Numbered from the stretch's first letter, positions 3,145 to 16,633 are shown. The stretch is 22,026 nt of DNA from a virus (IMGVR_UViG_3300033149_000817:1-22026); one strand, 5' to 3'. Numbers and translations: made by a program. The notes: a model not told the origin generated them from the letters alone.

Positions 3145-3528
3145 ATGAGTATGCCTTTCATGGTCCGTGTTTCTGATGACATGGGGACAGAAGTTCATGC
3201 GGTGGTAGAAGCATGGAATATAAGTCCTGCCGAATTCTTCCGGATCGCGGCGGACGATCTGTTGCGCCGACCGCTTGGCGAGCAGCAGGCCGTCATTGAC
3301 CGCTGGAGCGCACGGCAAGCGATGCGCGGGGTTGGAACCGAGGGACCATCTCGAAACAGGAGTTTCGACAACATCCTCAAGACCGGCAAGCGCTTGCTCG
3401 TAGATGCAGGGAACCGTAATGACGAGGAGCTCAAGCGTGAGATCAAGGAATGGCTAACGACACAAATGACCGAGATGATTAATGCTTTGATAATCCAAGA
3501 GGAGGTAAAAAATAATGACAAATCATGA
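3145..3528 (+). CDS. Putative ribbon-helix-helix-like DNA-binding protein
   Basis: A 127-residue protein; GGAGG lies 6 bases before ATG 3145. Residues 4-42 (PFMVRVSDDMGTEVHAVVE, then WNISPAEFFRIAADDLLRR) show a strand followed by two helices, the plan of Arc/CopG-type repressors, with a charged C-terminal tail ending EEVKNNDKS. As the first gene after the rightward promoter it is well placed to be a regulator of that promoter or of replication. The last 14 bases overlap the HNH gene. The fold is inferred from pattern alone; a plain helical protein is the alternative. Confidence 0.45.
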   Translation: MSMPFMVRVSDDMGTEVHAVVEAWNISPAEFFRIAADDLLRRPLGEQQAVIDRWSARQAMRGVGTEGPSRNRSFDNILKTGKRLLVDAGNRNDEELKREIKEWLTTQMTEMINALIIQEEVKNNDKS

Positions 3529-4282
3529 GAAATGGGAAATGAGAATGTCTGTTGAACCATTAATAAATAGTGGTGATATATTGCTAAATGATGATATCGA
3601 ATTTTTGCGTCAGCATACAAAGGCGCAGGTACGAATGCTTCTTGATAGAAGTACTATGAAATGTCAATATAATGTCGAATTGATTTGTGCAGAATGTGGT
3701 CAAAAGAAAATGGCGAAAATAAATAAAACCCGACTTATCAAATTACTAAACGTGGAATATATATGTGACGAGTGTATATATGAGCGTAAAATACGCGAAA
3801 TGCAGGCAAGAGCACGGGCAATATTAGAAAAAAAGCAACAGAGGGAAAGTGATATTCAAAATTTTGTTGATAAATATCTTGATCCGCACGGGGTATGGGA
3901 TCCTGATATACGACCCAAAAAACGATTTAGTCTGATGATGCGTGATTTCCCAGAAAGAGCAGATGACGAAATAGCTGCAAAAATACGTAATATAGAGTAT
4001 AATGATTTCTTACAAACGCCTTATTGGAAGGCAGTTGCTTCAAAAAAGCGAGCCGAATGTGATAATAAATGCAATATGTGCGGAGCGCGTAATGTCCCCA
4101 TAATGGTGCACCATGGGGATTATGCAAGACGAGGATATGAACATAAATATTATAAATCTGATTTGATGTGTTTATGCCGAAAATGCCATGAGAAATATCA
4201 TGCAAACAAACAGAATGGAGGGAAACATGAAATATACAGTATTCGGGTTGCAACAAGACAAATTACTGGAGTGGGGCCTTGA
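3515..4282 (+). CDS. HNH endonuclease with an extra N-terminal zinc-binding region
   Basis: A 255-residue protein, start ATG 3515 after GAGGAGGTAAAA. The C-terminal part is an HNH nuclease: CNMCG (C186, C189), VHHGDY (H199, H200), and DLMCLCRKCHEKYH with C221, C224, H225 and H229, so four zinc cysteines frame the catalytic histidines. An additional pair of CxxC motifs (C58/C61 and C84/C87) probably forms a separate zinc knuckle for DNA contact, followed by a long basic helix. The gene is clearly more AT-rich than its neighbours and lies between a regulator and the replication initiator, typical of a free-standing homing-type endonuclease. About 25 residues after the nuclease core overlap the initiator gene by 56 bases in another frame, as if the original end of the gene was lost on insertion. 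Confidence 0.75.
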   Translation: MTNHEKWEMRMSVEPLINSGDILLNDDIEFLRQHTKAQVRMLLDRSTMKCQYNVELICAECGQKKMAKINKTRLIKLLNVEYICDECIYERKIREMQARARAILEKKQQRESDIQNFVDKYLDPHGVWDPDIRPKKRFSLMMRDFPERADDEIAAKIRNIEYNDFLQTPYWKAVASKKRAECDNKCNMCGARNVPIMVHHGDYARRGYEHKYYKSDLMCLCRKCHEKYHANKQNGGKHEIYSIRVATRQITGVGP

Positions 4283-5111
4283 TCTGAAAGACGCTGCAAT
4301 ACTCCGGTATATCATAGATTTCCAAGGCACACACAAGATGAAATCGCGAGTAATCCAAGGTGAGGAGTATTTCTGGGTATTTTACTCGGCAATTCGTGAA
4401 AATCTCCCGATTCTCGGCATAGAGAAGGAGGATACATTCTATCGGAGATTCAAGAAGTACGTCAAAGTTGGGTTGATGAAGCACCGGACGACGAGAGCTG
4501 GAGGAGTGTTTTCTTGGTATCGATTTGATCCAGATATGCGTGCTGAGTTGTTAGGTGCTGATAGTAGCGAGACCAAACCGGATGAAAATCCGGGACAAAC
4601 CGGATCAAAATCCGGTATAAACCGGATGAAAAGTCGGAACAAAGATTCTTCTATTAGTGATTATTCTAGTAAATTCAAAGAAGATAGTCATACGTCACCC
4701 GGGAAGCTACAATCCGACAAGCGCCTATCGGCGGTGGCTATCGCCACGTCTCACAAACCATCATCACTGGTACACTCTGAGATGCAGGCGTATCAACGGG
4801 CAGGAGGACCATTCGCCAGCTATGGCAAGGAAGGGGCAAGCATGAGGCGATTGGTAGCGTACGCCGAACGGGCATTCCCTGATGATCCCCCGGCATTCCT
4901 TGAAGCGCTACGTATGAAGTTCGGCGAATTACGAGCAGGCAGGGTGCCGGGCATGAACGCCCGGGAGCGTGCATTCTGGGCGAGTCAGCCATTCACGCCT
5001 TCCGCGCTACTATCGGTGGCAGAGCGAGTGGCAGAGTACCTGAAGAAACACAAAACGGAGGAGGTAGATCAAGAGGTTATGGAGGCGATGAGGAAGGCTT
5101 TTGCCGTATGA
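4227..5111 (+). CDS. Winged-helix replication initiator / replisome organiser
   Basis: A 294-residue protein. ATG 4227 is chosen because GGAGGG stands before it; an upstream in-frame ATG lies inside the HNH gene. Residues 1-115 hold a winged-helix domain: LLEWGLDLKDAAILRYIIDF, then EEYFWVFYSAIRENLPILGI and DTFYRRFKKYVKVGLMKHRT, ending with a W-Y-F wing. This is the layout of initiators and replisome organisers in many phages and plasmids. Residues 115-165 form a polar linker, which at DNA level contains the iterons. Residues 165-294 are helical and charged, probably for helicase or loader contact. It overlaps the next gene by ATGA. The role as the phage origin-binding protein is inferred from the domain and the iterons together. 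Confidence 0.7.
   Translation: MKYTVFGLQQDKLLEWGLDLKDAAILRYIIDFQGTHKMKSRVIQGEEYFWVFYSAIRENLPILGIEKEDTFYRRFKKYVKVGLMKHRTTRAGGVFSWYRFDPDMRAELLGADSSETKPDENPGQTGSKSGINRMKSRNKDSSISDYSSKFKEDSHTSPGKLQSDKRLSAVAIATSHKPSSLVHSEMQAYQRAGGPFASYGKEGASMRRLVAYAERAFPDDPPAFLEALRMKFGELRAGRVPGMNARERAFWASQPFTPSALLSVAERVAEYLKKHKTEEVDQEVMEAMRKAFAV
4575..4640. repeat. Three tandem 22-bp iterons inside the initiator gene
   Basis: Three head-to-tail copies of 22 bp (4575-4596, 4597-4618, 4619-4640) share AAACCGGAT, one variable base and AAAATCCGG; the third has GTCGG in place of TCCGG. Each unit contains the imperfect inverted repeat CCGGAT / ATCCGG. Because 22 is not a multiple of 3, every copy is read in a different frame and the encoded peptides differ, so the repetition is kept at DNA level and not for the protein. 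Confidence 0.85.
4575..4695. other. Putative phage replication origin (iterons plus AT-rich segment)
   Basis: The three iterons are followed at 4641-4695 by a strongly AT-rich stretch, a plausible unwinding region. The position, inside the linker part of the initiator gene, is the same arrangement as the lambda origin within gene O. Origin activity is inferred from layout and not shown. Confidence 0.6.
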
Positions 5112-6344: not shown

Positions 6345-6671
6345 ATGGGCAGGCCGGGCACGTGGAAACCAGGACAAAGCGGCAATCCTCATGGACGGCC
6401 CAAGAATGCTCTCTCTGAAGAGATTCGTGCTGCATTAGAGAAAGTACGATCTGTGGAGGTGGATGGGCGCAAGCGAAAAATGACCGAAAACCAGGTCCTA
6501 ATTCGCATTTTGTTGACGAAAGCACGGGAAGGAGACCAGAAGGCTATCCAGATGCTATGGGATCGTGGATATGGAAAGCCGACAGAAGATGTACACATGA
6601 GTGGCGAGCTATCCGGGGGAGGGGTGATTATTGTTGAACGCGCAAACGGAATACCGGATAAAACTGCTTGA
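6345..6671 (+). CDS. terS: Terminase small subunit-like protein (DUF5681)
   Basis: A 108-residue protein starting MGRPGTWKPGQSGNPHGRPK, the hallmark of the DUF5681 domain found at the N-terminus of small terminase-like proteins. The middle is helical (EEIRAALEKV; NQVLIRILLTKAREGDQKAI), followed by MLWDRGYGKP. Small terminases bind the packaging site and present DNA to the large subunit. Its last 41 bases overlap the large terminase gene. AGGTAGGA before ATG 6345 acts as the ribosome binding site. Confidence 0.7.
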   Translation: MGRPGTWKPGQSGNPHGRPKNALSEEIRAALEKVRSVEVDGRKRKMTENQVLIRILLTKAREGDQKAIQMLWDRGYGKPTEDVHMSGELSGGGVIIVERANGIPDKTA

Positions 6672-7830
6672 TGCGCAGGACCGATTCATCTTTTCATCAG
6701 CGAAATACTCAGCTTTCATCGGTGGTGTAGGGTCGGGTAAGACGTGGGCGGGCTGCGTCAATTCGCTGATACACTGCCATAACGATGTATTTGGCGCGAT
6801 AGTGGCACCTACCTACCCAATGCTCCGTGATGTGACGCAGGCGACGTTATTGACGATCCTGGACGAGGCGGAGCAGGTATACACGCATGTAAAGAGTGAG
6901 AATATCCTGTACTATCAAGGGACGACTATCTATCTACGGTCAGCTGATCAGCCGGACAGGCTCCGTGGCCTCAATCTTGATTGGGCATATCTTGACGAGG
7001 CGGCTCTTATGCGGGAGATGACTTGGCGCGTGATCTTGGGGCGTCTACGGCGAGGTGAGCCGAGAGCGTGGATAACGACCACGCCGGCCGGGTATAACTG
7101 GGTGTATCGATATTGGCAGGAGCGCAAGGATGCAAACTATGCCATGATCAGGGCCAGCACCCGGGATAATACCTATCTTCCGTCCGAGTATGTGCGGGAC
7201 CTCCTTGACACCTATACTGGGGAGTTTGCCAGGCAGGAGATCGAGGGCGAGTTCGTAGCATTTGAGGGGTTGGTGTACAATTTCCGATACGACGTACACG
7301 TGGTGGAGCCGTTCGATATCCCCGAGGATTGGACGATAGTACGAGGTATAGACTTTGGATATACAAACCCATTTGTCTGTCTATGGGGCGCGATAGACGA
7401 GGACGGACGTTTATACATCATAGATGAGCACTATCAGCGCAAGACGTTGATCAAGGACCATGCAGAAGCGATCAAGGGGAGGCCATGGAAGAAAGCGTTA
7501 TGGACCGTGGCCGATCACGACGCCCAGGGCAACGCCGAGCTGTGGGAGAATGGAGTTGATACAATCAACGCACAAAAAGCGGTAATTGACGGCATACAAA
7601 AGGTTGCGGCGAGGCTGGAAATAGCGGGAGATGGACGACCCCGGTTGTATGTTATGAGCAATTGTGTTAACCTTATCAAAGAGTTCGGCATATATCGATG
7701 GGTAGACAGTAAAGAGGGGCGAAATGAGAAAGAGGAGCCAGTGAAAGAGGCCGATCATGCAATGGATGCTCTACGTTACATGGTGATGGAATTAGACAAT
7801 TCGCGCGCCCCGAAAGTGAGGTTTGTATGA
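6631..7830 (+). CDS. terL: Terminase large subunit (packaging ATPase and nuclease)
   Basis: A 399-residue protein started at TTG 6631, with GGGGGAGGGG 7 bases upstream. The ATPase domain shows Walker A GGVGSGKT (31-38, K37), and Walker B YLDEA with D122 and the catalytic E123. The nuclease domain carries the RNase H-like acidic residues: GIDFGY (D241), ADHDAQ (D295, D297) and ADHAMDALRY (D375, D379). This is the complete motor that pumps DNA into the prohead and cuts it. Length is slightly short but all motifs are intact. It overlaps the portal gene by 4 bases (ATGA). Confidence 0.93.
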   Translation: MLNAQTEYRIKLLDAQDRFIFSSAKYSAFIGGVGSGKTWAGCVNSLIHCHNDVFGAIVAPTYPMLRDVTQATLLTILDEAEQVYTHVKSENILYYQGTTIYLRSADQPDRLRGLNLDWAYLDEAALMREMTWRVILGRLRRGEPRAWITTTPAGYNWVYRYWQERKDANYAMIRASTRDNTYLPSEYVRDLLDTYTGEFARQEIEGEFVAFEGLVYNFRYDVHVVEPFDIPEDWTIVRGIDFGYTNPFVCLWGAIDEDGRLYIIDEHYQRKTLIKDHAEAIKGRPWKKALWTVADHDAQGNAELWENGVDTINAQKAVIDGIQKVAARLEIAGDGRPRLYVMSNCVNLIKEFGIYRWVDSKEGRNEKEEPVKEADHAMDALRYMVMELDNSRAPKVRFV

Positions 7831-9896
7831 TCCGCGAAAAGATTTTGCAGTGGCTACGTAAGGGGGCGAATCCCGTATCGCCGACGAATTCGCATTTTCG
7901 GCGCATATTCGGCTGGGATACAGAAGACAAGAAGATCACGAAACCCTATGAACAGATTGCCACCGTGTATGCCTGTAACCGAGTAATTGCGCGTAATGTT
8001 GCCCAAGTACCGTTCGTGATCAAGCAGGGCGATAATCCGGTAACGACTGGACCGATCATCGCGTTGTTCAATAACGTTAATGACACAATGAGTCGGTATC
8101 AGCTGTGGGAGGCGATAGTAACGCAACTCGGGTTGTGGGGCGAGGCGTTTGTTGTGAAAGACGCAGAGGTAGTGCGTGGTATTCCCGTTGCGCTTTGGAT
8201 CAGATCGCCGGCAGATTTCAAGCCTGCTATGCGCAATGGTGTATGGGTCGGCTGGGAGCATTTCCGAGACGGCGTGAAGGAATTTCTGGACAAATCGCAG
8301 GTGATCCAGCCGAAATATTGGAACCCGTATAATCAGTTGCGTGGCATGGCTCCTATCGATGCGTTGATGTTGTCGTTGCAAGCGGATTGGGACGCGATCC
8401 GTTACAACAGCAAGTTCTTTTCCCAGGGTGGGCATGTCGGGGAGATATTCACGACTGATGAGCGGCTGAATGACCAGCAATATCAACGACTGGAAGATCA
8501 ACTAATCAATCGTCGGGCGGGAATGGAAAGTGCTCACAAGGGCATGGTGCTTGATGCCGGCCTGAAGGTGCAGGACCTCCGCAAGGCTAACAAGGATATG
8601 CAGTTCATTGAGTTGCGCAAGTTCACGCGGGAAGAAATTGCTATGGTCTACGGTGTTCCCGAGACGGAACTAAGCCTGTACAAAGAGATTCCGTATTCCA
8701 ACGCTGTAACGGCTGATTTGGGATTTTGGAAGAAAACCCTTATTCCGATCATGCGGCTGATTGAAGATAAGTTCAACACTGATTTTCTTTCGGAGCTTGG
8801 ATACCGGGGCGAGTTTGATGTATCGCAGGTTGACGTGCTGAACGCCGAGGTCCTCGAAAAGGCCGATGCTGCGAAAACGTTTTATCAGATTGGCATACCG
8901 ACGAATCAGATCAACGCCAGGCTCGGACTTGGGTTCGAAGAGATACCGAACGGGGATGAGCCGTTTGCCGGTCGTCCTGCTCCGGCACCGGCCGGTCTTG
9001 CAGTTGCCGAGCATGAGGAGAAGCAACTCGATATTGCCGGTGAGCCGGAGATGCGACGGATATCTGATGACCAGGTACGTAAAGAGATACGGGCGGCTGT
9101 CTGGAAGAGATTGGACCGGAAAGCCTCGCCCTTGGTATCGGCGTGCGCGCGAGAGGTGAAGAGGTATTTCCACGATACCGAGCAGAAGCTGCTCCGGAAG
9201 ATTATCAAGGGGAAAGGCGATGATGCCGTGTTGAAGGCGGAGGTTCCGCCGGATGTTGAGCGGGCTGTGCATGAATCCATTGATGACCAGGTGCTTATAG
9301 CTATCGTCAGCAAGTACACCGGGGACGCGATTGAACTTGGTTGGGCCACGATACAGACGAGTGCGAAGCTCTCTGATGATGTGGCGCGGGCCCTGATCCT
9401 GGAGCGGACGCAGACGATGCGAGGGATTAACGAGACATTGCGGGAGACTCTGTTACGCAAGCTCTCGCAATCTATCGCGGAAGGTGGGACGGAACGCGAG
9501 CAGGCGCAATTGGTGATAGATGCCGTGCGAGATGCGTTTGATATTGCCAAGGGGCGGGCACAGACGATAGCGCGAACCGAGGTGCATAGCGCGTTTGCTA
9601 AGGGCCGGCGTCTGTCTGCTGATAGTACGCATCCCAAGGCCAAGATGTGGTTGTCGTCAAGAGACCGGCGTGTTAGGCCCTCGCATGTCGACATGGACGG
9701 CGAAACGGTGGCGTGGGCGAAGAACTACTCCAACGGCCTCATTCACCCTCTGGATTGGGGCGGTGACCCGGCAGAGGTGATCAATTGTCGCTGTGTCGAG
9801 GTGCCGATCTACGAAGGCGAGGATGAAAGCGCCATGCTCGATGAATGGCGACGGAGCACGCCGGAAGAGTTTCTGCGCCGGCGGGAGGGTGAGTGA
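7827..9896 (+). CDS. Portal protein fused to a Mu F-like minor head domain
   Basis: A 689-residue protein, much longer than a lone HK97-type portal (about 400). Residues 1-390 are a portal: YEQIATVYACNRVIARNVAQ, YQLWEAIVTQLGLWGEAFVV, RGMAPIDAL and FTREEIAMVYGVPETELSL are typical. A proline-alanine linker (RPAPAPAGLA) near residue 390 leads to a helical section and a C-terminal Mu F-like domain: AQTIARTEVHSAFAKGRR near 580, RPSHVDMDGETV, then HPLDWGGDPAEVINCRC. In most phages these are two genes whose products meet at the portal vertex. Here the fusion places the minor protein at every portal subunit. The frame is intact. ATG 7827 overlaps the terminase stop. Confidence 0.9.
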   Translation: MIREKILQWLRKGANPVSPTNSHFRRIFGWDTEDKKITKPYEQIATVYACNRVIARNVAQVPFVIKQGDNPVTTGPIIALFNNVNDTMSRYQLWEAIVTQLGLWGEAFVVKDAEVVRGIPVALWIRSPADFKPAMRNGVWVGWEHFRDGVKEFLDKSQVIQPKYWNPYNQLRGMAPIDALMLSLQADWDAIRYNSKFFSQGGHVGEIFTTDERLNDQQYQRLEDQLINRRAGMESAHKGMVLDAGLKVQDLRKANKDMQFIELRKFTREEIAMVYGVPETELSLYKEIPYSNAVTADLGFWKKTLIPIMRLIEDKFNTDFLSELGYRGEFDVSQVDVLNAEVLEKADAAKTFYQIGIPTNQINARLGLGFEEIPNGDEPFAGRPAPAPAGLAVAEHEEKQLDIAGEPEMRRISDDQVRKEIRAAVWKRLDRKASPLVSACAREVKRYFHDTEQKLLRKIIKGKGDDAVLKAEVPPDVERAVHESIDDQVLIAIVSKYTGDAIELGWATIQTSAKLSDDVARALILERTQTMRGINETLRETLLRKLSQSIAEGGTEREQAQLVIDAVRDAFDIAKGRAQTIARTEVHSAFAKGRRLSADSTHPKAKMWLSSRDRRVRPSHVDMDGETVAWAKNYSNGLIHPLDWGGDPAEVINCRCVEVPIYEGEDESAMLDEWRRSTPEEFLRRREGE

Positions 9897-10738
9897 TGCC
9901 ATATCCGAATGAACATGCCTGTAGGTTGCATGATCCCGGCAAATATGATACATTGAGGCGGAAGAATTGTGATGAAAAGGTGGACGGCAAATGTATTGAC
10001 GTGATCTATGGTATCACGGACAACAAGAGCGAGATACAGGCGTTGCGATATGACAGGGATGTATGGACGGAAGGCGAGGCGCATAAGCATTGCGATGGTC
10101 GCGGCGGGACGTTCGAGGCGGCGAAAGGAGCGGATGACGTGGCAGCGAAGAGCATAGAGGGCAAGCTAGTAAAGAGGGCTGATACATACGGGATCATGGC
10201 AAGTACCGGTGACAAGGATCGTGATGGCGAGATTGTGGCGCCTGCTGCATTCAAGAACTTGAAGCAATACCTTGGTACGAACCCGGTTATCCTGTTTGGG
10301 CACCAATACGATCAGCCCCCGATTGCGAAGGCAACGGACGGCAAGGTGCTTGATAATGGGCTCCGGCTGGATATCGAGTTTGCCGAGACCCCCTTTGCAA
10401 AAGAGGTCAAGTATCTCTATGATAACGGGTTTATGAATAGCTTTTCAATCGGGTTTATCCCGAAGGACTGGGAAGTTGACAAGAATGGTACTAGAGTCTA
10501 TACTGATGTAGAGCTGCTGGAAGTCAGCGCGGTGCCGGTGCCTGCGAACGCGGCGGCGACCATGATCCGGCAGGCAAAATCACGAGGCGTCGAGCTATGC
10601 GAGCTGGAGCGTGTCTTGGGCAGTAACCCAGAAAGTAACCCCGATGAGGGTGAAACGGCGGCGAACGAAAAGGCAAGTCTTGCGAGTGTGGCTGACAGAT
10701 ATGAAAGGAAAAGACGATGGACAAGATTAAACTTTTGA
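9896..10738 (+). CDS. Prohead protease with an additional N-terminal domain
   Basis: A 280-residue protein. ATG 9896 (TGATG overlap with the portal stop, GGGAGGG upstream) is preferred over GTG 9893. Residues 1-80 form an extra module (YPNEHACRLHDPGKYDTLRR, then VWTEGEAHKHCDGRGGTFEA) with paired Cys and His residues; it is seen fused to proteases and other head proteins of some phages. Residues 85-235 are the HK97-family (S78-like) maturation protease: DRDGEIVAPAAF, VILFGHQYD (H136) and NSFSIGFIPKDW (S184), followed by EVSAVPVPANAAA. It would cleave the scaffold part of the capsid protein. The last 22 bases overlap the capsid gene. Confidence 0.88.
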   Translation: MPYPNEHACRLHDPGKYDTLRRKNCDEKVDGKCIDVIYGITDNKSEIQALRYDRDVWTEGEAHKHCDGRGGTFEAAKGADDVAAKSIEGKLVKRADTYGIMASTGDKDRDGEIVAPAAFKNLKQYLGTNPVILFGHQYDQPPIAKATDGKVLDNGLRLDIEFAETPFAKEVKYLYDNGFMNSFSIGFIPKDWEVDKNGTRVYTDVELLEVSAVPVPANAAATMIRQAKSRGVELCELERVLGSNPESNPDEGETAANEKASLASVADRYERKRRWTRLNF

Positions 10739-12024
10739 AAGAGCTCATTGAAAAGAGCGAAGGTGACGAACGGGCGAAGTATGAAGAGGAGTTGCTCCAG
10801 GCAATCGAGGAACACGCCAAGGAAGAGGTTCGCAAGGAGCTGGAAAAAGAGTTCGCCGAGAAGGCTAAAGCCGAGCAGGAGAAGAAGGATGCCGAGGATG
10901 CGGAGAAGTTGACGAAAGCCAACAAGGAGAAGGATGTCCGTATCAAGGTGACCAGCCCTGGCGAGTACAAGGGTTATTCGATTCTGCGCGAGGTGGATTC
11001 TGCCAAGGCGGGCATGAATGATCGTGTCAAGGCGCGCATGGATCAGCACCCCGAGCAGGCCGAGAAGGTGATCAAACACTTCATCGATCTGTTCACCGGC
11101 GCGACCAAGGCGCCGTTTGAACGGGTCAAGGCGGCCATGCAGGAAGGCACGGATACTGAGGGTGGGTATCTCACTCCGACCGAGCAGCGTAACGAGCTGT
11201 TGGCTTACATCCGGGACACCTCCAAGACCATGGGGGACTGTCAGCATGTTGCTATGGCAAGTGACGTGATGACGGTGCCGGCGGAGAATGCCAAGGTCTC
11301 TGTTGCGTTCACCGATGAGGAGAATACGGCCACTGAAACCGAACCGACTGTTGCCGTGGCAACGCTGACAGCTAAGAGACTAGATGGATATTCTGTGGCA
11401 TCGAACGAGCTGTTGGCGGACGAAACGACTGGTATCGTCGGTGTCCTATTGAGCCAGTTCGTAGAGGCGGTTGGTCAGAAGATCGACTCTGCGGTGTTCA
11501 AGGGTGCCGGTACTTTGGTAGACGGTTCCGGGTTGTTCCTGGCGGCCGGATACTCGGAGGTGTTTGATACCGGGAGCACGCACTTCTCCGAGATTCTGGA
11601 GAGCAACATTCGGAACATCGTGTCCAAGATTCCGAGCCAGTACATCAACAACATGGGCGGACAGGGGAAGTGGTACATCCACCGAACTCCGCTCTGGCAG
11701 TACATCTACGGGCTCCAAGATGGTGACTCCAGGCCGATCTTCATCCCGAGCTACAATGAACGGGTGCCTCATCAGATTTTCGGCTATCCGGTTGTGATAG
11801 CGGAGGAGGCGATCGGCACGAGTGCGGCGGAAACGGCCATGGCTCTATTCGGGAACCTACGAGGGTTCATCATCGGAGACAGGTTGACCAAGATAAGTCT
11901 GTTCATGGATCCGTATTCCAAGAGCACATCTTATCAAACCCTGTTCCTGATGTTCACTCGATGGGCATTCGCAAATGCTCTACCGAACTACACCGGTCGT
12001 ATCGCGACGGGTGCTGCTAGCTAA
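10717..12024 (+). CDS. Major capsid protein, HK97 fold, with N-terminal scaffold region
   Basis: A 435-residue protein; AAGGAAAAGACG precedes ATG 10717. Residues 1-75 are a very charged coiled coil (LLKELIEKSEGDERAKYEEE onward, many E and K), the delta domain that acts as built-in scaffold. The mature part begins around residue 140-150 (EGTDTEGGYLTPTEQRNELL) and shows the HK97 pattern: ASDVMTVPAE, ATLTAKRLDGYSVASNELLA, FKGAGT, PHQIFGYPVVIAEEA and the C-terminal FIIGDRLTKISLFMDPY. The cut by the protease just upstream presumably lies between residues 75 and 150. Lys and Asn residues are present but a crosslink cannot be judged. Confidence 0.92.
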   Translation: MDKIKLLKELIEKSEGDERAKYEEELLQAIEEHAKEEVRKELEKEFAEKAKAEQEKKDAEDAEKLTKANKEKDVRIKVTSPGEYKGYSILREVDSAKAGMNDRVKARMDQHPEQAEKVIKHFIDLFTGATKAPFERVKAAMQEGTDTEGGYLTPTEQRNELLAYIRDTSKTMGDCQHVAMASDVMTVPAENAKVSVAFTDEENTATETEPTVAVATLTAKRLDGYSVASNELLADETTGIVGVLLSQFVEAVGQKIDSAVFKGAGTLVDGSGLFLAAGYSEVFDTGSTHFSEILESNIRNIVSKIPSQYINNMGGQGKWYIHRTPLWQYIYGLQDGDSRPIFIPSYNERVPHQIFGYPVVIAEEAIGTSAAETAMALFGNLRGFIIGDRLTKISLFMDPYSKSTSYQTLFLMFTRWAFANALPNYTGRIATGAAS

Positions 12025-12308
12025 TGGCACATAAGTATGGCGAGCACTGCAACAACTGTGGTGCTCGCGTACTTATCCATTACGGATTCTGTCCTTACTG
12101 CGGCGCTCCCATGTGGAGCGCTAGCAGTCTTCCCTCAAAACGCATAAGGATGAAGCATGACTCTACAGTGGGCCAAGGCCCTCGATCTACCCGGAGTCGG
12201 GTTCGGATACACGACGCATCAAAAGAGACTGCACGAAGCACTGGAAAAACTCGGCGTCCAGTTCAGCGACGACGCCGACGTAGCAGTGTCGATAGTACCG
12301 GCGGGTAA
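12024..12308 (+). CDS. Small zinc-ribbon protein between capsid and glycosyltransferase
   Basis: The ATG at 12024 overlaps the capsid stop (TAATG). The first 37 residues hold two CxxC knuckles, HCNNCGARVLI and FCPYCGAPMW, followed by SASSLPSKR: a compact zinc ribbon. The open frame continues to residue 94, but the last 50 residues lie inside the glycosyltransferase gene in another frame and have the Arg/Ser-rich composition of an out-of-frame reading. The functional part is therefore probably the first 40-50 residues, and the original stop may have been lost when the next gene was joined. It may bind RNA, DNA or the glycosyltransferase, or be an acceptor; nothing decides this. Confidence 0.55.
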   Translation: MAHKYGEHCNNCGARVLIHYGFCPYCGAPMWSASSLPSKRIRMKHDSTVGQGPRSTRSRVRIHDASKETARSTGKTRRPVQRRRRRSSVDSTGG

Positions 12309-13296
12309 CTTCAACTATAAGCCGGGCAAGTTCAACATCCTTTATACCATGTACGAGATGACGACGATCCCTGATAACTGGGTGCCGAAGGTCAAGCAGG
12401 CCGATCTTGTCGTTGTTCCGTGCAAGCAAAATCAGGATGTCTTCCGGCAATACACGGATAAACCGGTGGTTGTCTGTTGGGAGGGAGTAGAGACAGACAA
12501 GTACACCTATATCAAGCGTGAGTTCCCCGAAGATAGGCCGTTTACCTTTCTTTGGTTCGGTGCGAGCAATGCCCGAAAGGGCTATGAGCACATGGTGATT
12601 GCATGGCACATATTCCGTGTCGTGGAAGCTCGGGCGGTACAAGAGGGGCGGGTACGGCTACTCATGAAAACAACGCAGATAGGCCGAAAGGAGCGCATTG
12701 TTGGTTATGAAGATGGTATCCCGATCAAGGAAGACATGCCGCAGGAAAGACTCTTTGCTGCTGATGAAGTTGTTGTTGACACTCGGCGCCTCCCCGTCGA
12801 TGGTGCGGACTATTGCCTCCCGCCTGTCGGCGGAGACATTAAGAACTATTGGATCGACGACAAGGAGAAATGGCCCGGTTTGGTACAGATGTATCATCAC
12901 GCCCATGCGTTCTGTTTTCCGTCGATGGGTGAGGGGTTTGGGTTGACTCTTGCCGAAGCAATGGCTACGGGGCTTCCGTGTATCTATACCAACTGGGGTG
13001 GACCGAGAGATTTCATCGGCAAAGAGGAGGGTTTCCCGCTGTCGTTTCACTGGGCACCGGTGACTGCACAGACGCCGCAATCCGACGGGACGATGAAGCC
13101 CACCTACAAAGGGACGGCGGCCAGTATTGACCCGATGGAGCTCGTAAAAAAGATGCGGCATGTTTATTACAACTATGAGCGGGCACTGATGAAGGGGAGA
13201 AAAGCGGCTGAACGGATCAGACGAAATATCACTTGGGAAAAGAGTGCAAGGAGTTTTGTCGAAATTGTGGAGAAATATACAGGAGAACGATTATGA
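12157..13296 (+). CDS. GT-B glycosyltransferase (GT4-like)
   Basis: A 379-residue protein with AAGGATGAAGC before ATG 12157. The C-terminal half has the GT4 donor-binding signature: FCFPSMGEGFGLTLAEAMA with E259 and E267 seven residues apart, then GLPCIYTNWGG. The N-terminal half includes ILYTMYEMTTIPDNWV, ADLVVVPCKQNQDVF and WEGVETDKY, and FTFLWFGASNARKGYEH marks the domain junction. Such enzymes transfer a sugar from a nucleotide donor with retention; the donor and acceptor are unknown. The overlap with the sulfotransferase is ATGA, and the gene runs with the structural operon, so its product should accumulate during virion assembly. No signal peptide: it acts in the cytoplasm. Confidence 0.88.
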   Translation: MTLQWAKALDLPGVGFGYTTHQKRLHEALEKLGVQFSDDADVAVSIVPAGNFNYKPGKFNILYTMYEMTTIPDNWVPKVKQADLVVVPCKQNQDVFRQYTDKPVVVCWEGVETDKYTYIKREFPEDRPFTFLWFGASNARKGYEHMVIAWHIFRVVEARAVQEGRVRLLMKTTQIGRKERIVGYEDGIPIKEDMPQERLFAADEVVVDTRRLPVDGADYCLPPVGGDIKNYWIDDKEKWPGLVQMYHHAHAFCFPSMGEGFGLTLAEAMATGLPCIYTNWGGPRDFIGKEEGFPLSFHWAPVTAQTPQSDGTMKPTYKGTAASIDPMELVKKMRHVYYNYERALMKGRKAAERIRRNITWEKSARSFVEIVEKYTGERL

Positions 13297-13937
13297 TCAA
13301 ATTCTTGCATGTGGTAAAAACCGGGGGGACGACCATAAGCAGGCATTTGTTGAAACATTATCCGGGCTATAAGGATATGCGAAATGGCGTGGTATCAAAC
13401 GGTGGTGAGATCAGATTCATTCAGGGACATCATGGACAGATAGGATGGGAAAATGATGGCGCACAATACATGACCATTGTTCGTGATCCCGGTTGGTGGT
13501 ATCCGTCGGTCTATAATCAAGATAGAAGTCGAACCGGATCGGAGATTGGCTTCTGGACGTGGTATGAAAGAGGCGGGGAGAATACTGTCATCCCATACGG
13601 CGGGCAGAAGGACCGCCAGTTTGTCTATCTCGCAAAGCTGGTAAACGCCGGGAACCTTTCGGAGGTGCTCTGGAGATTGGAACACTTCTGGTTTGTGACG
13701 ACGACAGAAGCTCTCGACCATGATCTCCCGTGGTTATTCACCCAGCTTGATGTACCGGGAAACTATGAGAAAAAGCGGGTGACCGGGGAGTTCGACGAGA
13801 TCGATGAAATCACCATTACTCGATATTTCACGCCGACAATCGAGGAAATGCAACGCCTCAGAGGGGAAAATAGATTGGATTACATGATGTGGCGATATGT
13901 CCAGGGATTGAGAACAAGGCGGGCGTATGGATGTTAA
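13293..13937 (+). CDS. Sulfotransferase (PAPS-dependent, family 2-like)
   Basis: A 214-residue protein; ATG 13293 overlaps the previous stop as ATGA and has AGGAGAACGATT before it. The start FLHVVKTGGTTISRHL is the 5'-phosphosulfate loop of sulfotransferases (K9-T-G-G-T13). YMTIVRDPGWWYPSVY contains the 3'-phosphate-binding pair R64 and S72, eight residues apart as in known enzymes. Between them, QGHHGQIGW is in the usual place of an acceptor loop and may supply the catalytic base. The enzyme would move sulfate from PAPS to a sugar or protein hydroxyl. Next to a glycosyltransferase, a sulfated glycan is the natural reading, but this is inferred. Confidence 0.8.
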   Translation: MIKFLHVVKTGGTTISRHLLKHYPGYKDMRNGVVSNGGEIRFIQGHHGQIGWENDGAQYMTIVRDPGWWYPSVYNQDRSRTGSEIGFWTWYERGGENTVIPYGGQKDRQFVYLAKLVNAGNLSEVLWRLEHFWFVTTTEALDHDLPWLFTQLDVPGNYEKKRVTGEFDEIDEITITRYFTPTIEEMQRLRGENRLDYMMWRYVQGLRTRRAYGC

Positions 13938-14730
13938 GCTGAGTCTCACAACTCACTGCAACGCAAAATGCAGGACGTGCCCGGTGTGGAGTATCCCGGG
14001 TAGGGATATGCCTTGGGAAGTCTTTACGAACATCTGGAGCAAGATTAACGCGAGCAAACTTGTCAGCAGGATATTGCTCAATAACACCGGAGACATGTAT
14101 GTCCATCCGGATCATATTCGCATGTTTGAATATATCGAGCAGCATCACTACAAGCCCATCATCATGACGACAAATGCAGCGGGCATGGACTATGTCCCTG
14201 CGGTGGACCTGATCATCATATCATTCAACGGCGGGACGAAAGGATCATACGAATATACCACCGGGCTATCATGGGACGAGGTGACGGCCACGATTCGGAG
14301 CCATTACTCAGAGCTCGCACGCCGGCCACTGGAAATGCACATGTTGGCATGGGACGGAAATGCCGGCACGGAGCAGGCGCTTGTTGAATACTGGCATGAT
14401 TTCCCAGGCCGTATCAGGGTATCGTACAAATACGATAATCAGATGCGCGACGACCATACGTTGCCTCAATACAGGCGAACGGACCGGATACCATGCGATT
14501 ATCTGGATATGATTAGCGTAATGCCGGATGGCAGGGTGGTGAGTTGCGCGCATGATTTCCATGCGGTAACCAATTTCGGCAATCTCTATACGGGCACGGT
14601 TGCCGGTACGATAAAGCATCCCAATAGGCTTCAGATGAAAGCCGAACATGCAAGGGGGGAGTTTCGTGGACTTTGTGCGAAATGTAATTACAATACGCCA
14701 ATAGGTGATCGGGTTGTGTATCTCAAGTGA
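13927..14730 (+). CDS. Radical SAM protein with SPASM/twitch-like C-terminus
   Basis: A 267-residue protein overlapping the sulfotransferase gene by 11 bases. The N-terminus LSLTTHCNAKCRTCPVW carries the radical SAM CxxxCxxC motif (C11, C15, C18) for the [4Fe-4S] cluster. The middle follows a partial TIM-barrel pattern (LLNNTGDMYVHP, PIIMTTNAAG, DLIIISFNGG). The C-terminus CDYLDMISVMPDGRVVSCAHD (C190, C207) and LCAKCNYN (C250, C253) forms a four-cysteine set for an auxiliary cluster, as in SPASM/twitch enzymes that modify peptides, sugars or cofactors. In this cassette it may alter a sugar or a protein side chain. Substrate not determinable; the family call is firm. Confidence 0.88.
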   Translation: MDVKLSLTTHCNAKCRTCPVWSIPGRDMPWEVFTNIWSKINASKLVSRILLNNTGDMYVHPDHIRMFEYIEQHHYKPIIMTTNAAGMDYVPAVDLIIISFNGGTKGSYEYTTGLSWDEVTATIRSHYSELARRPLEMHMLAWDGNAGTEQALVEYWHDFPGRIRVSYKYDNQMRDDHTLPQYRRTDRIPCDYLDMISVMPDGRVVSCAHDFHAVTNFGNLYTGTVAGTIKHPNRLQMKAEHARGEFRGLCAKCNYNTPIGDRVVYLK

Positions 14731-14759: not shown

Positions 14760-15367
14760 ATGGCGGTCACAGCTGATACGGATAATGCGCTGATTACGAT
14801 TGATAATGATTTGCGGGATTATCTCGGCATTGCCAATGATGATACGACCTATGATGACAAGCTCCAGGCCGTGATCAACGCCTTTTCAAAATTCGCCAAT
14901 AACTATACTGGGCGCTTGCTCAAGGCCAGGGATTTGACCGAATACTACGACGGCACCGGGACGGAGGCACCGGGACGGATACGCTCTATGTAGACAACTA
15001 CCCGATCAACAGCATCACCTCTCTCTATATTGATACCGGGCGCGATTATGGAGCGGACAGCGAGGTGGATAGCGATGATTATAGCCTCTATGGGGCCGTA
15101 GGCAAGATTGTGTTGGACAATACGATATTCAGCGGTGGAGCGCAGGCAGTGAAGATTGTTTACAACGGTGGATATTCGACGATTCCCTGGGACCTCCAAG
15201 AGGCAGCGCGAGAGTTTCTGGCGAGTGTATGGAATAGGGACAAAAAGGACCTGCTCAACGTGGCATCGGTGAGTGTCGAGGGGCAGAGCATCAGTTACGA
15301 TATCAAGGCAATACCAGAGTTCGCCAAAGAAGTGTTGGATTATCACCGGAGGCCTGCTCATGGGTAG
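14760..15367 (+). pseudogene. Head-tail connector gene, frameshifted by a 14-bp duplication
   Basis: Starts at ATG 14760 with GGAGG upstream. The first frame reads ALITIDNDLRDYLGIANDD, then VINAFSKFANNYTGRLL and EYYDGTGT and then goes out of frame, ending at 14993. Removing one copy of the tandem repeat 14952-14979 joins it exactly to TDTLYVDNYPINSITSLYID, then GAVGKIVLDN, VKIVYNGGYSTIPWDLQEAA and VLDYHRRPAHG, giving 197 residues. This is the pattern of gp6-like connector proteins that join portal and tail: N-terminal helices, a central beta domain with a Y-N-G-G-Y motif, and C-terminal helices. The second half has no well-placed start of its own. Either the phage lost the gene or the duplication is a sequencing or assembly error. 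Confidence 0.8.
14952..14979. repeat. Exact 14-bp tandem duplication
   Basis: GGCACCGGGACGGA occurs twice with nothing between (14952-14965 and 14966-14979). Fourteen is not a multiple of 3, so the extra copy shifts the reading frame of the connector gene; deleting it restores a continuous protein. Confidence 0.95.
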
Positions 15368-16240: not shown

Positions 16241-16633
16241 ATGAGTGCTACACTAGGGAAAGACGGCGAGATCAGGATTGGGTCGTCTGTCATGGCGCTG
16301 ATGGACACGTGGAGTCTGAACATGTCAGCCGACGTTGTGGAGACAACTGCATTCGGGGACACGCACAAAAACAGGAGCCAGACATTCAAGGACTGGACCT
16401 GTTCGATGTCGGGGCATTTGGACCGGTCGGATGCTCAGCAGGCTGCGTTGCTCGATCAGTTCGAGGACGGGACGTTGAGCGAGGTAGAGGTGCGCCTCTA
16501 TACGGATGCCGGTTCAAGCTACTGGTACGGTTCGGCTGTTCTGAGCGGCACAAGCGTATCGTCTGGCGTTGCTGATACGGTCAAGGTATCGTTCGACTTC
16601 CAGGGTTCCGGCGACCTGAACTACAACTCCTGA
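16241..16633 (+). CDS. Major tail (tube) protein
   Basis: A 130-residue protein; AGGGAGGTGAGAAA precedes ATG 16241. The sequence LGKDGEIRIGSSVMALMDTW, then VETTAFGDTHKNRSQTFKDW, and the beta-rich VSSGVADTVKVSFDFQGSGD are typical of short tail tube proteins: V-E-T-T-A-F-G-D is a conserved loop. Subunits stack as hexameric rings around the tape measure. The 12-base gap before the gene carries only the ribosome binding site. The gene ends one base into the next start (TGATG). Confidence 0.85.
   Translation: MSATLGKDGEIRIGSSVMALMDTWSLNMSADVVETTAFGDTHKNRSQTFKDWTCSMSGHLDRSDAQQAALLDQFEDGTLSEVEVRLYTDAGSSYWYGSAVLSGTSVSSGVADTVKVSFDFQGSGDLNYNS

Follow-up and report, generated by a model that had tools for sequence, protein, structure and literature searches.

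As a rule, bacteriophage capsids are taken to consist of protein that is unmodified save for cleavage and cross-linking. Glycosylated virions have so far been reported for a few mycobacteriophages, whose glycans are carried on the C-termini of the capsid and tail tube proteins (PMC12619734, PMC12363180, citing Freeman et al. 2023). Hypervariable glycosyltransferase and lipopolysaccharide regions, some with radical S-adenosylmethionine (SAM) genes, have been described in pelagimyophages; these regions adjoin the tail-fibre genes of large myophages, are read as changing the host O-chain, do not lie between major capsid and connector genes, and are presented without mention of a sulfotransferase (PMC7029224). 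Phage sulfotransferases have been described as being of unclear function (PMC10580990), and our literature search found no description of a phage cassette combining a sulfotransferase, a radical SAM enzyme and a glycosyltransferase (GT). In this paper, we analyze such a cassette in the viral record IMGVR_UViG_3300033149_000817, a linear fragment of 22,026 bases (the whole of which is called the window hereafter), where the three enzyme genes lie between those of the major capsid protein (MCP) and the head-tail connector. We consider it probable that they encode a modular, late-expressed and soluble pathway, by which the virion proteins of the phage itself would receive a glycan that is sulfated and probably oxidised by radical chemistry.

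From position 6631 on, the plus strand of the window carries the late operon of a tailed phage, in the order terminase, portal with a MuF domain, protease, HK97-type MCP, cassette, connector, neck and tail genes, the last including the major tail protein (MTP) and the tape measure. The following genes are referred to throughout.

10717 to 12024, plus strand: MCP of HK97 type, candidate acceptor (PF05065, 5e-34; phrog_10, 1e-36)
12024 to 12308, plus strand: zinc-ribbon microprotein (PF13240, 2.8e-6)
12157 to 13296, plus strand: putative GT4-type glycosyltransferase, the constant core of the cassette (PF00534, 1.8e-13)
13293 to 13937, plus strand: putative sulfotransferase (ST) of the 3'-phosphoadenosine 5'-phosphosulfate (PAPS) type (invariant motifs in six homologues; profile match 2.8e-8)
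13927 to 14730, plus strand: putative twitch-type radical SAM enzyme (rSAM) with a BtrN-like fold (seven invariant cysteines; structure model)
14760 to 15367, plus strand: head-tail connector, the first gene past the cassette (phrog_442, 0.0013)
16241 to 16633, plus strand: MTP, second candidate acceptor (alignment of ten homologues)

The genes of the cassette are tightly packed. The stop codon of the MCP gene overlaps the start of the zinc-ribbon open reading frame (ORF) in TAATG, the GT and ST genes overlap in ATGA with the ST start at 13293, and the ST and rSAM genes share 11 nt. No terminator-like site was found on the plus strand inside the cassette, and promoter-like sites there showed no clear excess over chance. 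An earlier reading of the window from its sequence alone (the sequence-only reading) had given the coordinates and order correctly, with the three enzymes between the MCP and the connector, and the ATGA or short overlaps that it reported between the enzymes are real. It also had the cassette begin at 12024; this position, however, is the start of the separate zinc-ribbon ORF, which it had missed, and not that of the GT.

The cassette resembles the systems of the mycobacteriophages Che8, Corndog and Myrna in two respects: the GTs are phage-encoded, and the glycosylated capsid and tail tube proteins are the counterparts of those flanking the two slots that the cassette occupies in the window's family (see below). 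On the other hand, the Che8 GTs are of the GT2 and GT25 types with a fused methyltransferase, whereas that of the window is of the GT4 type, and a comparison confined to Che8 revealed no similarity between the window GT and gp108 or gp110. The Che8 GT genes are located between 56 and 58.7 kb in a genome of 59.5 kb, near its right end, among hypothetical and HNH genes, and, unlike the window GT, are flanked by no sulfotransferase or radical SAM gene. The window cassette may thus work in the manner of mycobacteriophage virion glycosylation, by analogy and not as a member by homology. Distant homologues of the window GT (~24-26% identity) are also found in Streptomyces phages; however, Jada gene 20, for example, has another GT and a ribonucleotide reductase as neighbours but neither an ST nor an rSAM, and is separated by several genes from the portal. 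On the strength of this gene context, we gave up the view that the two are one system.

The window protein encoded at 12157-13296 belongs, as judged from its sequence, to the GT4-type (Glycos_transf_1) enzymes and is predicted to transfer a sugar. It passes the curated Pfam cut-offs clearly (PF00534, 50.9 bits vs 26.4; PF13692, 48 vs 27), and the glutamates E259 and E267 of the EX7E motif in its C-terminal domain, to which the sequence-only reading had pointed, are invariant in 22 homologues. A match to PF20706 ('GT4-conflict') was considered as a sign of a role in conflict, and was set aside as reflecting the common C-terminal half of GT4 enzymes. The closest solved relative by profile is B736L (PDB 3oy2, 1.2e-9), which we take to be a chlorovirus enzyme. 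In chloroviruses, GTs encoded by the virus glycosylate its own major capsid protein, and we know of no sulfation or radical SAM step there; B736L differs from the case studied here in coming from a virus of a eukaryotic alga with an unrelated capsid, and its sequence link to the window GT is distant.

The ST of the window on its own has no match in Pfam, PHROG or NCBIfam, and a scan with it as a single protein found nothing, but an alignment-based scan recovered homologues. In six of these, K9-T10-G11-G12, R64-D65-P66 and S72 are invariant, the first corresponding to the 5'-phosphosulfate-binding loop of such enzymes and R64 and S72 to their 3'-phosphate-binding residues, which bears out the earlier assignment of a PAPS sulfotransferase from KTGGT, R64 and S72 as regards KTGG and the latter two residues. 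The profile of the six homologues best matches heparan sulfate 6-O-sulfotransferase 3 (PDB 5t03, E 2.8e-8), with which the family shares the PAPS motifs; that protein is a eukaryotic Golgi enzyme, whereas the phage ST is soluble and has 214 residues. The best Foldseek matches of a weak structure model (predicted local distance difference test, pLDDT, 61.6) are likewise heparan sulfate sulfotransferases (2e-4). The window ST gave no match to PF03567 (Sulfotransfer_2), for which its homologues score 17-20 bits vs a cut-off of 22. The protein thus appears by its motifs and profile to be a member of the PAPS-dependent sulfotransferase superfamily outside Pfam family PF03567.

In the rSAM, the CX3CX2C cysteines (C11/C15/C18) and the four putative auxiliary-cluster cysteines of the twitch domain (C190/C207/C250/C253) are all invariant in 18 homologues, so that the seven cysteines noted in the sequence-only reading hold across the family, and the latter four align with those of BtrN, the twitch radical SAM dehydrogenase of butirosin synthesis. 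BtrN (PDB 4m7t) ranks first by Foldseek for the rSAM model (pLDDT 95.6), comes first by VIA-align (Z 19.8, rmsd 2.8, 218 residues aligned), and is the only profile match (1.4e-5), at an identity of 13%. From motifs and model together, the enzyme is assigned to the twitch/SPASM branch of the radical SAM superfamily, with a predicted BtrN-like fold.

To see how the cassette is distributed, we scanned IMG/VR with the MCP, rSAM, GT, ST and MTP as seeds, which yielded a family of contigs sharing the layout; dozens of them show it, more than chance would give. Gene positions were counted in contigs from the MCP-seeded scan only, to limit circularity, and among these in distinct contigs with at least 1.5 kb downstream of the MCP. 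This GT lies between the MCP and the connector in all 21 such contigs whose MCP scores >350 bits, vs none of the nine with MCPs of 100-330 bits. One of these nine, L168, carries a distant GT4 and a methyltransferase directly behind its distant MCP (3374-5042), which hints that the arrangement extends past the studied clade. Distances among GT, MCP and portal correlate about equally (0.75-0.84; MCP-GT r 0.75, MCP-portal 0.84), indicating that the GT has been inherited with the head module, and GT and rSAM covary beyond the head genes (partial 0.60).

The sequence-only reading had stated that its proposal would fall if the trio did not recur near head genes of related phages; the trio was found in about eight further contigs, and the proposal was not refuted on this count. 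The GT occurs together with this ST family and this rSAM family in L053, L032, L155/L156, L204, L205 (where the trio is cut by the contig end) and L134, where its order is reversed to rSAM-ST-GT; L053 belongs to a metagenome-assembled genome that also encodes an adenosine 5'-phosphosulfate (APS) kinase. Other subfamilies are involved in L024, where GT-ST is accompanied by a second radical SAM family, and in L162 (7006-8423), where the GT is preceded by a radical SAM enzyme of this second kind together with an enzyme of the Sulfotransfer_1 type that scores above its Pfam cut-off, so that the same three predicted activities appear to have been recruited from different subfamilies. In L035/L036 the order is GT-ST-methyltransferase. 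The GT is thus constant in the cassette, and the ST is optional. No relative of the ST or the rSAM was found among 50,697 phage records, and there is therefore no cultured phage at hand for the trio.

A second slot lies beside the major tail protein, for which an alignment of the six closer MTPs was used in scanning, that of ten being too diverse. In L035/L036, L054 and L134, where the capsid protein is no close relative of the window's, a homologue of the window MTP comes right after the cassette, which here sits within the connector genes at the tail end, and L014 has two GT copies, one behind the MCP (3619-4623) and one directly before the MTP (7754-8794). Whatever modules surround it, then, the cassette keeps its place next to the genes encoding the two most abundant proteins of the virion.

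Other genes in the same slot vary from contig to contig, and include an NAD-dependent epimerase, LicD with a cytidylyltransferase, a PIG-L deacetylase, methyltransferases, a transglutaminase-like protein, GT2 and GNT-I-like GTs and the second radical SAM family. By sequence family, the exchanged epimerase, LicD, cytidylyltransferase, PIG-L, GT2 and methyltransferase genes are of glycan-tailoring types. Between the MCP and the GT of L041 (5396-7850) lie LicD, a GNAT-like ORF, a cytidylyltransferase, a radical SAM protein and a zinc-ribbon ORF, a set that suggests decoration of the phage glycan with a phosphorylated alcohol, for example a phosphocholine-like one. In L047 (260-2018) and L048 (5475-7233), a PIG-L-type deacetylase, two methyltransferase-like genes and a zinc-ribbon microORF stand directly upstream of the GT, and in L032 (1064-1513) the transglutaminase-like protein, which has an N-terminal hydrophobic segment, is inserted between GT and ST. 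As for the zinc-ribbon ORF of the window, its conserved-looking part comprises about the first 40 residues, beyond which it runs over the GT gene in a different frame. In 16 of 41 contigs, vs 33 of 820 control positions (4%), the GT is immediately preceded by a small CxxC/CxxC ORF, whose product is likely a helper of the cassette, perhaps in targeting.

The gene identities and motifs, the order and overlaps, the recurrence in two slots and the co-inheritance with the head genes are what is observed, and the pathway that we propose from them would run as follows. The soluble GT4 would add a sugar to an abundant virion protein, the MCP and/or the MTP, in the cytoplasm during late expression; the ST would move sulfate from host PAPS onto the glycan made by the GT; and the BtrN-like rSAM may oxidise or otherwise alter the glycan via hydrogen abstraction, with the zinc-ribbon microprotein helping, perhaps in targeting. 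The GT would be fixed and the tailoring enzymes exchanged between phages, so that virion surfaces would differ chemically from phage to phage; surface charge or recognition, stability, or shielding may be the purpose. We favor this reading because the enzymes are soluble (no membrane segment was found in the GT, ST or rSAM), their genes are translationally coupled to that of the MCP, and the two slots adjoin the MCP and MTP, the proteins reported to be glycosylated in mycobacteriophages; because the trio recurs, the GT has been inherited with the head genes and the exchanged genes are of glycan-tailoring types; because the nearest relatives of the ST act on glycans and BtrN, the nearest to the rSAM, is an aminocyclitol dehydrogenase; and because the genome bin of L053 contains an APS kinase. 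The sequence-only reading had likewise proposed a late pathway, by which the capsid, the tail or a small carrier would receive a sugar or side chain that is sulfated and then modified again. As applied to virion proteins, this is partly supported and remains the best-supported reading, with the amendments that the GT is the constant member, that the ST is optional, and that a zinc-ribbon gene belongs to the cassette.

Several points weigh against this proposal. The acceptor, the sugar, the order of steps, the exact rSAM reaction and the purpose are all what we infer. The model of the ST is weak, and since the peptide-acting anSME and SuiB tie with BtrN on the VIA-align Z, action of the rSAM on a sugar and on a peptide are both possible. 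The 350-bit boundary was chosen after inspection of the table and the split was read from the tables; moreover, because the two sets of contigs are two lineages, the contrast of 21/21 and 0/9 may reflect a single event. Matching of MCP and GT beyond the portal gave a partial correlation of 0.08 and hence no specific signal. Finally, a conserved Thr/Ser at the MCP C-terminus was considered as a GT-specific glycosylation site and dropped, because capsids without this GT have the same motif.

The main rival, which we regard as unlikely, is that the enzymes alter host polysaccharides or their precursors during infection, so that sister phages or newly released virions fail to bind, which would block superinfection or free virions from cell debris. 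LicD, sulfotransferase and deacetylase genes also act on surface polysaccharides, which favors this explanation. So does the host-surface role often given to phage GTs (PMC7029224, PMC10202952). However, the trio lacks membrane segments, a flippase or GtrA/GtrC-like partner was not seen in the slot, the site in the late operon is constantly by the MCP or MTP with co-inheritance with the head genes, and an integrase was found in only one of ten related contigs, all of them possibly fragments. The product might instead be a peptide or small molecule, with the rSAM and GT modifying a small carrier such as the zinc-ribbon microprotein, as the tie of the rSAM fold with anSME and with SuiB and SkfB, maturases of ribosomally synthesised and post-translationally modified peptides, and the small ORF upstream of the GT would allow; yet this microprotein is absent or unrecognised in most contigs with GT and rSAM and has no leader/core look or export signal, BtrN is the sole sequence-profile match of the rSAM, and the exchanged genes are of glycan-tailoring type, which makes this explanation improbable in our view.

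The variable content of the slot and the optional ST would also suit unrelated moron cargo, in which each gene has its own role and merely came to rest where the late operon tolerates insertions, but the GT is fixed in the clade, GT and rSAM covary beyond the MCP, the trio stays together when reversed in L134 and when rebuilt from other subfamilies in L162, and start and stop codons overlap, so that we lend this account still less credence. DNA-modifying GTs are known in phages, and hypermodification of DNA bases by the GT and ST might be invoked on that ground. Phage glycosyl- and sulfotransferase systems have, moreover, been grouped with nucleotide modification (PMC10829341). Nevertheless, no thymidylate-synthase-family gene was found in the ten related contigs, which are possibly fragments, and the cassette sits among virion genes rather than replication genes; of all these explanations we find this one the hardest to credit. 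A role in anti-phage defence was also considered, and found no support: PADLOC gave no match for the GT, ST or rSAM.

Some observations concern the neighbouring genes. The connector frame of the window (14760-15367) is broken by a 14-base tandem duplication (ggcaccgggacgga twice) at 14945-14990, whereas intact homologues exist, for example in L003 (11310-11906); the duplication is either an assembly fault or the mark of a defective genome. Large structural-looking proteins, possibly decoration or beta-helix proteins, are encoded between cassette and connector in L024 (6674-8493) and L026 (10603-11991). In L145 (2738-4355), an MTP homologue follows the MCP after 17 bases, without the connector, neck or cassette in between, which is due to a deletion, an unusual layout or a chimeric assembly.

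If the proposed pathway exists, sulfated and radical-modified virions would be a new chemistry for phages, and a cassette fixed next to the capsid gene across a capsid lineage, with exchangeable tailoring enzymes, would mean that some phages govern, and vary, the chemistry and charge of their surface. Mass measurement of virion proteins allows a cheap and direct estimate of how common virion modification is, and the cassette supplies candidates for sulfotransferases that act on glycans and for radical SAM enzymes that act on sugars. The question is also raised of what is selected for, be it recognition on the host side, stability or adhesion to particles. More tentatively, and with somewhat less than an even chance of being right, we suggest that a widespread uncultured lineage possesses a hypervariable virion-glycan locus comparable to the flagellin or pilus glycosylation islands of bacteria, in which a fixed GT would prime and swappable enzymes would diversify the glycan, and that its members, differing in surface chemistry, may include the first phage with a sulfated, radical-oxidised virion.

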